Shown in pieces: positions 8,805-58,447 of a stretch of 64,000 nt of DNA. Under the pieces are notes generated by a model. The model did not search any database. It was not told the DNA's origin and saw only the letters and a program-made list of their open reading frames with translations. The translations under genes were made by a program, and so were the position numbers. Numbering within the stretch: the stretch's first letter is position 1; every line of letters starts with the position of its first letter. Origin of the DNA: Actinokineospora inagensis DSM 44258 (GTDB lineage: Bacteria; Actinomycetota; Actinomycetes; Mycobacteriales; Pseudonocardiaceae); contig NZ_AXWW01000049.1 of assembly GCF_000482865.1 (NCBI RefSeq), forward strand, positions 1 through 64,000. The letters run 5' to 3'.

Positions 8805-9237
8805 GAGACCCCTCTCGCCGGTGGTGAGTGATATTCACACACCCTGCCGTTGTGGTTGGCCACCCTAGCAGCACCCGGATGGGCGACGGTTAAACCGTTT
8901 GAAGCCCATCGGCGGAGCGCATAAATTGGGCGGTACACGAGAGAGGAGGTGGTCCAACGGTGTATTCCCATAGGACTCGTGAGGTGGCTGTCCGCTAGGA
9001 CCACCCATCCGAGAACGATGGTGCCGGCCTTCGCAACACGGATGACACGGCCCTTCCGGGGCTGATGCCGTACGCGCGGGCGTGTGGTCGGCGAATACCA
9101 GGCAGTCACCCAGCCCCCGGGCTTCCGGGCCCAGTCCGACCCGGACCCCGCCGCCACCTTGTCGGCCGGGGAAGCACGCCCGGGGGCTGTCCTCCACCCA
9201 GATCTGCACAGTGGCCCAGTCGGCTCTGCACAGTGGC
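8805..9237. other. 433-bp intergenic stretch with a structured, SD-containing segment
   Basis: No convincing protein gene is present. The segment 8941-9005 holds GAGAGGAGGT, a strong ribosome-binding sequence, followed by GTG at 8960 opening a 12-residue frame that stops at 8998. An 8-bp inverted repeat (GGTGGTCC and GGACCACC) encloses that frame. A longer frame from GTG 8949 runs to the TGA near 9063. The rest shows nothing recognisable apart from the tandem duplication at its right end. Confidence 0.5.
8941..9005 (+). ncRNA. Possible structured leader or small RNA with tiny ORF
   Basis: GGTGGTCC near 8949 can pair with GGACCACC near 8998, closing a 42-nt loop that contains a GTG-started 12-codon ORF (8960-8998) preceded by GAGAGGAGGT. 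This looks like a leader-peptide or regulatory RNA arrangement, but no gene follows on the plus strand until 10039. The function is unknown. Confidence 0.25.
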
Positions 9238-45545: not shown

Positions 45546-45681
45546 GCCGCGAAGGTAACGCACAGCGGTGACAGAATGATGTCCCGGTGGCGGCCGTCGA
45601 GGGGTATGGAGATCGTGGCGGTGGTCGGTGGAAGTGAATGAGAAATGGGGCCGGGCGTTCCAGAGCCGCAGGTCAAGAAGT
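45546..45681 (+). promoter_or_regulatory. Probable CRISPR leader
   Basis: The 136 bp between the hydrolase start and the first repeat lies at the end opposite the degenerate repeats, so it is the expected leader. It is somewhat less GC-rich (for example GTGAATGAGAAATGGGG near 45633-45649). No clear -10/-35 pair is visible. Confidence 0.5.
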
Positions 45682-46320
45682 GTCGTCCCCGCACACGCGG
45701 GGCTGTTCCCACCACCGACGCGGTGTTCTTGACCGCGACCACGTCGTCCCCGCACACGCGGGGCTGTTCCCCCGGCCAAACCGATCCGCAGGTCCAACAA
45801 CCAGTCGTCCCGCACACGCGGGGCTGTTCCCAGTCGCGCCTTCGCGAGCGTGTCGGCCACCCGGTCGTCCCCGCACACGCGGGGCTGTTCCCGAGCCCGA
45901 TCGGCGCGCCATGCCCGCCCATCGGTCGTCCCCGCACACGCGGGGCTGTTCCCAGACGTACCGCATCGGCTGGGGTGATGGCGTCGTCGTCCCCGCACAC
46001 GCGGGGCTGTTCCCTCTACGAGTTCATCACCGTCATCCGGAAGCTCCGTCGTCCCCGCACACGCGGGGCTGTTCCCGGGTGGCGGATCGCGCCGCACGAG
46101 TACAGGTGGTCGTCCCCGCACACGCGGGGCTGTTCCCAAGTACCTGCGTGACGTGCAGACGCTGGCCATGTCGTCCCCGCACACGCGGGGCTGTTCCCAC
46201 CGAGCGCGCCTCGTGATCGCGGACCCGATCGTCGTCCCCGCACACGCGGGGCTGTTCCGTTGGCCGGTGGCGTAGAGGTCTTCGACGTTCTGTCGTCCCC
46301 GCACACGCGGGGCTGTTCCA
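45682..46320 (+). CRISPR. Type I-E-like CRISPR array, 11 repeats and 10 spacers
   Basis: Repeats of 29 bp start GTCGTCCCCGC and end GCGGGGCTGTTCCC, with the CCCCGC/GCGGGG hairpin of type I-E. They begin at 45682, 45743, 45804, 45864, 45925, 45986, 46048, 46109, 46170, 46231 and 46292. Spacers are 32 bp except the sixth (33 bp). Repeat 3 has lost one C. The last two repeats have a changed final base (G, then A), which puts the trailer on the right and the leader on the left (45546-45681). No cas gene lies in the window. Confidence 0.97.
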
Positions 46321-46400: not shown

Positions 46401-46480
46401 TTGTCCACAATGCTCGCCGCCGTCCACAGACCGAGCGTCAACCTGTTTCCCCCGCCCCCACCTCGGTAAACTGGCATCGA
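46401..46480 (+). promoter_or_regulatory. Paired-box promoter module, copy A
   Basis: TTGTCCACA (46401-46409) and CGTCCACA (46421-46428) are two direct boxes 20 bp apart. After exactly 38 nt comes a TAAACT -10 hexamer (46467-46472), then 8 nt and a GGGC start. The same order and spacings occur at 58231-58309, although the 38-nt spacer itself is not conserved. Two helical turns between boxes suggest a dimeric or cooperative activator. Confidence 0.6.
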
Positions 46481-46540
46481 GGGCTGCCCCCGGGAGGGTG
46501 GGGGCCGCCCTGGGGGTGGTGGGGGTGGCTTGTCAAGAGG
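46481..46540 (+). ncRNA. Putative small RNA, copy A
   Basis: From 46481 the sequence GGGCTGCCCCCGGGAGGGTG then GGGGCCGCCCTGGGGGTGG matches the equivalent part of copy B at 58310-58352 and folds easily (TGCCCCC with GGGGGC). It carries no conserved reading frame. It fills the 327-bp gap between the CRISPR trailer and the TPR-like gene, where nothing else is seen. Confidence 0.4.
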
Positions 46541-46647
46541 TGGGGGTGGTTTTCGCTGGATTGGGTGAGGTGGAAGTGGGTGGCTGTCTGAGGGGGTGGG
46601 GGCGCCACTGTGTGCGTGGGGCTGTTACCGCTGGTGGGTGGCGGGGG

Positions 46648-51528: not shown

Positions 51529-51720
51529 GTAGCGGTTACTCCTCGTTGTCGCCGCGGGGCGCACTGCCCTGGGCACGGGTCCGCGGTAGCGACGAGGCCG
51601 GTCTTCGATCGAAGCCCCCGGAGCCCTCTGGCTCGGCGGGGACCACTACCGAGGACCGGCGACCAGGTCCCGTGGCGCGGCGTGCTGCCCTGCGGTGTTT
51701 CCTTCTCGGTTCGGTTATGG

Positions 51721-58230: not shown

Positions 58231-58309
58231 TTGTCCACAAGCGCCGCAGGTGTCCACAGGCCACGGCGCGCGAACTTGACAAGCGGCCGGGTGCGCTACC
58301 GTCAGGAAT
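58231..58309 (+). promoter_or_regulatory. Paired-box promoter module, copy B
   Basis: TTGTCCACA (58231-58239) and TGTCCACA (58251-58258), 20 bp apart, are followed after exactly 38 nt by TACCGT (58297-58302) and, 7 nt later, GGGC. A TTGACA lies at 58276-58281, only 15 nt from the -10; it has no counterpart in copy A. Architecture is otherwise the same as at 46401-46480. Confidence 0.6.
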
Positions 58310-58360
58310 GGGCACCCGGCCCCCGGGTGGGTGGGGTCTGCCCTGGGGGTGGGCGGCGGC
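58310..58360 (+). ncRNA. Putative small RNA, copy B
   Basis: GGGCACCCGGCCCCCGGGTG then GGTGGGGTCTGCCCTGGGGG TGG matches copy A in order and most bases. A hairpin CACCCGG-CCC-CCGGGTG is possible. It lies downstream of the solute-binding protein gene's 3' end on the opposite strand. No conserved ORF is seen. Confidence 0.4.
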
Positions 58361-58447
58361 GAAGTCAAGCCCCGGTTGGGGTGATGCCGGGCGGGTGAAT
58401 GGTGGCGGGGGGCGCCGGTCGGGGGCTGGTGATGGGGGGCGGGCGGG

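Follow-up and report, generated by a model that had tools for sequence, protein, structure and literature searches.

DnaA-type box pairs mark a putative competence-regulon promoter that also heads dispersed short units in Actinokineospora

Natural transformation has been known in Actinomycetota for decades, and known competence cis-elements include the ComK boxes, the ComX cin-boxes and the CRP-S sites. As in those regulons, one cis-element of fixed geometry was found here before ssb, recA, comEA, comEC, comF-like, yraN and pilus genes. The element differs from the known ones in being a pair of DnaA-type boxes upstream of the -35 position, and the pilus genes behind it are of the Tad/Flp kind. 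Micrococcus luteus, whose transformation depends on a Flp pilus, also has Tad/Flp pilus genes together with comEA-comEC, according to the available portions of two reports (PMC4322843, PMC8467076). Competence regulation in this species is the subject of PMC8467076 and PMC12849477, the accessible parts of which name no promoter motif; the latter (2026) describes competence control in Actinomycetota as little known, with the upstream signals and cascade of M. luteus remaining to be identified. Our literature survey covered titles and abstract openings, with most subscription papers outside its scope; among the papers listed, none gave an account of the motif, of a competence regulon with DnaA boxes or of the repeats described below.

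The window analyzed here is a stretch of 64,000 nucleotides of Actinokineospora inagensis DSM 44258 (contig NZ_AXWW01000049.1). The original prediction described two intergenic modules of shared spacing in this window, copies A and B, and both are present as claimed (Table 1). GGGC follows the -10-like hexamer after 8 nt in copy A (at 46481) and after 7 nt in copy B (at 58310), and both copies terminate in GCCCTGGGGGTGG. Transcription would be expected to start near 46480 in copy A and near 58309 in copy B, and the CGCTGGATTGGGTGA tail of copy A is likely the 3' end of the unit.

Table 1. Positions of the promoter and unit features of copies A and B in the window.
Feature	Position	Strand	Remarks
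Copy A box 1	46401..46409	+	TTGTCCACA, DnaA-box-like
Copy A box 2	46420..46428	+	CCGTCCACA; 8-mer CGTCCACA at 46421-46428; 19 bp from box 1
Copy A -10-like hexamer TAAACT	46467..46472	+	38 nt past box 2
Copy A short-unit core, conserved	46465..46512	+	C5 / G-rich loop / G5; G-tracts on RNA-like strand
Copy A GTCAA tail element	46532..46536	+	131 nt from box 1; position as in 42/73 other units
Copy A CGCTGGATTGGGTGA tail	46554..46568	+	same module in 10/73 other units
Copy B box 1	58231..58239	+	TTGTCCACA
Copy B box 2	58250..58258	+	GTGTCCACA; 8-mer TGTCCACA at 58251-58258
Copy B -35-like TTGACA	58276..58281	+	15 nt before -10; invariant in 34 aligned type-1 copies
Copy B -10-like hexamer TACCGT	58297..58302	+	38 nt past box 2
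Copy B conserved core	58317..58345	+	related to copy A core
Copy B GTCAA tail element	58364..58368	+	133 nt from box 1; position agrees with other units

The window holds other features as well. An array of near-identical 28-nt repeats (GTCGTCCCCGCACACGCGGGGCTGTTCC) with spacers of about 33 nt, type I-E-like by eye, extends over about 45640-46319 and ends 80 bp before copy A; by eye, A. globicatena and A. terrae have no such array at this place. Rfam matches were obtained for Ms_IGR-5, an actinobacterial sRNA (8935-9195, plus strand, 81.4 bits), and for Actino-pnp upstream of a pnp-like ORF (51597-51660, minus strand, 62.9 bits).

The box pair is not a product of chance, because the whole genome of the window's species contains 75 exact pairs of the form TTGTCCACA-N11-YGTCCACA compared to 0 in the reversed control, and 269 nine-mer pairs at up to three mismatches compared to 1. 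The degenerate pattern TTRTCCACA-N10-YYRYCCACA was found 121 times, with a control of 0. When the gap between the boxes was scanned from 0 to 30 nt, 59 of the 70 matches showed the same spacing and five were one base shorter. A TAnnnT hexamer lies 37-40 nt past box 2 in 73/75 exact pairs, and 5 matches in total fell at any other distance between 20 and 69 nt. Both a multi-copy family and selection on the promoter are strongly supported. The absence of further copies, which would have counted against the original prediction, is contradicted by this genome. The distance of exactly 38 nt between box 2 and the hexamer holds at copies A and B, but the family as a whole varies between 37 and 40 nt.

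The orientation of neighboring genes was taken from a crude gene finder. The next gene runs opposite to 41 of the 75 exact pairs, as it does at copies A and B, and in the same direction at only 19 (another 12 pairs lie across a called ORF, and downstream of 3 nothing was called). Therefore, most copies were rejected as promoters of the neighboring gene. The exceptions are comEA and recQ, each of which lies directly at an exact pair. The comEA product (L042) scores above the Pfam cut-offs for HHH_3 and SLBB, above the cut-off for TIGR00426 and below that for TIGR01259; the recQ product (L050, contig C39) scores above the cut-off for TIGR00614. The start of recQ directly at the box pair suggests that, in the window's species, the regulon includes this helicase. 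Gene promoters and short units alike have a G next to the boxes, preceding box 1 in 82-88% and following box 2 in 90-92%.

Exact pairs were found in 97/298 genomes of the order, with control columns at 0, and about two thirds of the sampled genomes of the order have no exact pair. An even sample of the class yielded exact pairs in 7/394 genomes, of which two do not belong to the order. In genomes that are not copy-rich, the pair mostly precedes protein genes. The downstream ORFs were collected in alignment A4, which comprises 84 ORFs, several of them from sister species and so not independent; twelve loci of copy-rich genomes had been left out beforehand by eye. Profiles at E up to 0.001 identified Ssd/CpaE_hom_Actino in 12 ORFs, SSB in 10, ComEA in 8, RecA in 4 and SAF (CpaB-type) in 3, together 37/84 if no protein is counted twice. 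Furthermore, single profile scans added ComEC (L135, L143), YraN/UPF0102 (L105), a type IV prepilin peptidase (L111), Tad and TadE (L100, L136) and a ComF-like phosphoribosyltransferase (L162). Roughly 35-40 ORFs of the 84 fall outside the recognized DNA-uptake genes; examples are amine oxidases, an enolase-like ORF, M23 peptidases, XRE proteins and AbiEi/DUF559-like proteins. The AbiEi-like or DUF559-type proteins recur, by eye, directly behind the pair at nine loci (L075, L096, L109, L130, L137, L152, L165, L167 and L202), of which L109 scores just below the DUF559 cut-off and L130, L167 and L202 have no Pfam match. DUF4192 proteins stand directly at the pair in two genomes (L070, L097) and are possibly products of an uncharacterized DNA-uptake gene.

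A start codon lies 49-54 nt past box 2 in 32/84 ORFs when the ORF is picked by codon composition alone, and the next fullest 6-nt bin holds 5; the count rises to 42/84 when the choice of ORF favors near starts. Leaderless messages from a fixed transcription start are therefore indicated. A nearly closed genome of another family (G028, 4 contigs) contains 14 sites at up to two mismatches. The genes behind them include SSB, RecA, YraN and Ssd above cut-offs, a comEA with HHH_3 and SLBB above cut-off and TIGR01259 below, a comF with TIGR00201 below cut-off and a CpaB/RcpC-like gene below cut-off; the remaining sites precede an M23 peptidase, an S8 peptidase and an AbiEi-like ORF (the last two by eye), with others unclear. 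In G640, ssd, ssb and comEA account for three of the four exact sites. Sites at three mismatches are largely chance, with 25 compared to 11 controls in G640 and 42 compared to 21 in G028; among the eight ORFs scanned behind such sites (7 of G640, 1 of G028), one is a DNA-uptake gene, recA.

The upstream regions of recA were fetched for 30 relatives, and 29 were scored, since the landmark was missing in one. A pair at up to three mismatches with TAnnnT 38-41 nt downstream was present in 20/29 regions, compared to 0/300 shuffles. Ten of these 20 come from the window's genus and ten from other genera, and the remaining 9/29 stand at 4 to 8 mismatches. The recA of the window genome has a single TTGTCCACA, 39 nt before TAGCGT, at the same place as the relatives' pair. 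Many of the recA promoters (L372-L401) also have, between their box pair and the -10, a motif like TTGTCGG or CGTCGG; it recalls the PafBC DNA-damage promoter, and recA would then have two inputs. One cis-element thus stands before several DNA-uptake and recombination genes, keeps a fixed distance to the -10 (73/75) or to the start codon (32/84), and is retained at an orthologous gene, recA, across families. As judged from these sequence comparisons, its reading as a competence (natural-transformation) regulon is well supported.

Most pairs in the window's own genome lead into a short G/C-rich unit that is apparently non-coding. Sorted by sequence, 35 of the 75 pairs belong to the copy-B type (TTGACA-N15-TAnnnT followed by GGAATGGGC...CCCCGGGTGGGTGGG), 25 to the copy-A type with its relatives (CTGG...GCCCCC-GGG-N-GGGTGGGGG), 8 to a third type (TAGGCTGGATTCGGGGGCTGCTCAG) and the other 7 to none of these. 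Tail elements were counted in 73 units, both window copies being left out. A G[T/G]CAA element lies 128-152 nt from box 1 in 42/73 units, and 10/73 have a CGCTGGATYGGGTG-type tail whose end is 153-167 nt from box 1, so that the unit is about 155 nt long. Outside the units, the CGCTGGATYGGGTG-type tail had 0 occurrences in 311 kb of loci strand sequence.

A model of the copy-A type core that was built without copy B matched copy B at E = 0.00093. Covariance model R1 of this core gave at least 147 matches each in the window genome, G005 and G016 (another genus), 125 in G015, 94 in G011 and 41 in G024. No match was obtained from G002 (same genus), from four further genera of the family or from the 16 genomes belonging to other families. 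Conservation of the core nevertheless extends to other genera. Among the best R1 matches, 26/47 cores are preceded by a box pair at up to three mismatches, compared to 3/400 random positions; the window-genome cores among the 47 had mostly been picked outside the 75 exact pairs (20 regions, 1 exact pair inside). In the 46 core-selected copies with up to six mismatches, the spacing is 19 in 39 and the pair stands 37-40 nt before the hexamer in 36. The likeness to DnaA boxes that had been proposed for the boxes fits well: found here without selecting on them, box 1 reads TT[AG]TCCACA and box 2 [TC][TC][GA][TC]CCACA. Among the G015 cores sampled, 8/9 keep at most one recognizable box.

The original prediction also saw a structured small RNA in the two copies, which is unproven. 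Pairs of the C-run/G-run hairpin changed on both sides in 0/6 cases in A5, 0/4 in A1 and 1/8 in A2 (covariation term +0.12), and the claim of a structured hairpin was dropped because this amounts to essentially no covariation, an outcome that had been named in advance as speaking against the original prediction. A known RNA family was ruled out for both copies, neither of which matched Rfam in a gathering scan of the window or in permissive scans with E up to 1. Four G3 tracts with loops of up to 12 were found on the RNA-like strand in 62/75 units and on the other strand in 2/75; in 200 mononucleotide shuffles, the mean was 22.6 and the maximum 31. A quadruplex motif is thus present, as a motif, on the non-template strand near the predicted transcription start.

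The short units occur in the window genome, in many sister species and in a small number of related genera, and their numbers swing widely. Within the genus, exact pairs range from 0 to 196 per genome, and several species have 0 to 3. G015, with 196, often has units arranged in tandem on one strand, at distances of about 120-140 nt (L076, L180, L189). The spacer between the boxes is species-specific, its first base being T in 17/17 copies of G009 and A in 31/32 copies of G006. A. globicatena, A. terrae and A. diospyrosa have neither copy A nor copy B in the corresponding intergenic regions, and A. terrae has a lone CTGTCCACA in the copy B region. No pair at up to three mismatches was found near ribF in the 10 named Actinokineospora loci, whose products are the most similar among named loci and share 82-91% identity with the window's ribF product. 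Among 80 named loci, one has a pair near ribF, that of Actinophytocola algeriensis. That locus carries an exact pair with a different short unit, close to the position equivalent to copy A and oriented alike (L239 position 17242, minus strand). Elsewhere in the named loci, the core gave 1 match in 25 loci searched (L228). The short units therefore behave as an amplifying or concertedly evolving repeat, given their swinging copy numbers, their species-specific spacers and the missing copies A and B at the same places in three species. Terminal inverted repeats, target duplications and a mobilizing enzyme were looked for by eye, and none was seen.

We consider it probable that the module is an activator-dependent promoter of a competence regulon, with DnaA the most likely activator, and that the same promoter also heads a dispersed unit that includes copies A and B. 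The two boxes, a direct repeat 19 bp apart, would be centered some 60 and 80 bp before the transcription start. They look like sites for an activator that contacts RNA polymerase from upstream; the copy-A type has no good -35 to be seen, and the copy-B type has TTGACA at a short spacing of 15 nt. The boxes would recruit an activator, most likely DnaA, which would aid RNA polymerase at a weak -10 promoter, presumably when competence is induced. In relatives, this promoter would drive comEA, comEC, ssb, recA, ssd/TadZ-like, cpaB-type, yraN and comF-like genes, in many cases with no leader on the message. It would also head, in Actinokineospora and a small number of related genera, the apparently non-coding unit of about 155 nt, spread to more than 100 places.

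A dedicated activator of a small-RNA family, as had been suggested, is not supported, because the same promoter precedes comEA, ssb, recA, ssd, cpaB-type and other DNA-uptake genes. The activator of the short units would therefore be that of the competence-type regulon. DnaA is the first candidate for it, since the boxes are DnaA boxes in sequence and tolerated changes, similar pairs occur near dnaA, and each of 41/41 genomes encodes a single DnaA domain IV protein; a DnaA paralogue was rejected as activator on this last count. The main rival is a dedicated competence regulator of the same specificity, with a site that merely resembles a DnaA box and DnaA uninvolved. This has an appreciable chance of being right, though short of a probable one. 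Competence regulons usually have their own activator, the module has one fixed box spacing and one -10 distance while the same-strand pairs near dnaA (5/7 genomes) are 20 bp apart rather than 19, and many genomes of the order lack exact pairs, yet DnaA is present in all 41 relatives searched. Against such a regulator, the boxes show the same degeneracy as DnaA boxes (A/G at position 3, T/C at positions 1-2), 9-mers of these kinds occur near dnaA, also as direct pairs, and the single domain IV protein per genome leaves no DnaA-like paralogue at hand. Away from dnaA, the window's genome has a cluster of DnaA-type boxes, five to six in number and spaced by about 34-37 bp (L309 positions 528-700, contig C8 near 85 kb).

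The dispersed copies might mainly serve, like datA, as DnaA titration sites that time replication, with an incidental likeness to promoters. More than 100 box pairs per copy-rich genome would indeed bind many DnaA molecules, but titration needs neither a -10 at fixed distance (73/75) nor a conserved core nor a link to comEA, ssb and recA, and several species of the genus have only 0 to 3 exact pairs; we regard this as very improbable. That the units are a selfish repeat, MITE- or REP-like, which captured the competence promoter and whose RNA has no cellular role, comes close to an even matter. The range of 0 to 196 exact pairs within the genus, the absence of copies A and B from three close named species at the matching places, the species-specific box spacers (G009 T 17/17; G006 A 31/32) and the confinement of the tail module to 10/73 units all speak for it, while the core is conserved across genera and inspection by eye found no ends, target duplications or mobilizing gene. 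Many copies under one promoter type, with several core types and conserved cores, would also suit small regulatory RNAs that act in trans and are expressed along with competence, as are the pneumococcal CiaR-controlled csRNAs; this is rather unlikely, as covariation is lacking in A1 and A5 and limited to 1/8 in A2, and no Rfam family was matched. Finally, and decidedly unlikely, the units may be competence-induced initiators of recombination, at which RNA polymerase would start at more than 100 intergenic sites. At the time when RecA, SSB and RecQ are produced, the G-rich non-template strand (GGGtGGGtGGGG and similar) would come free in the form of an R-loop or G-quadruplex, and incoming DNA or sister units would pair there. 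If so, this would explain the likeness among copies within a species.

The main result is the promoter and its regulon: the observation of the paired modules is confirmed, and its earlier interpretation was partly right. The cis-element shared by comEA, comEC, ssb, recA, ssd, cpaB-type, yraN and comF-like genes allows the regulon of a genome to be listed by pattern search, and competence becomes testable in genera such as Actinokineospora. The element also points to DnaA, or to another reader of DnaA boxes, as activator, and DnaA would tie DNA uptake to the state of replication. Replication stress and competence are linked in the pneumococcus by another route than DnaA, as far as the consulted part of the report describes (PMC8394987). 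That one lineage spread this promoter more than 100 times before a short G-rich unit is unusual and needs explaining.

DnaA-regulated promoters and titration loci resemble the module in their DnaA-type 9-mer boxes, and here each genome has a single DnaA; the module would differ from them in its fixed 19-bp pair at about -60/-80 and in its DNA-uptake regulon. REP/MITE-type repeats share with the short units a high copy number, a mostly intergenic position, lineage-specific places and species-specific variants, whereas most copies here carry an activator-type promoter common to host genes. The unusual G-tracts of the units led to a comparison, as a lead, with the pilE element of Neisseria gonorrhoeae, where transcription of a small RNA that starts in the G4 sequence is needed for recombination, according to the part of the report available (PMC3547852). 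The likeness lies in a promoter with a transcript starting at a G-rich sequence of the quadruplex type, as is predicted here. The units differ from the pilE element in their more than 100 dispersed copies and their DnaA-type boxes. If they did initiate recombination, they would be, in principle, a genome-wide relative of the gonococcal pilE G4-sRNA.
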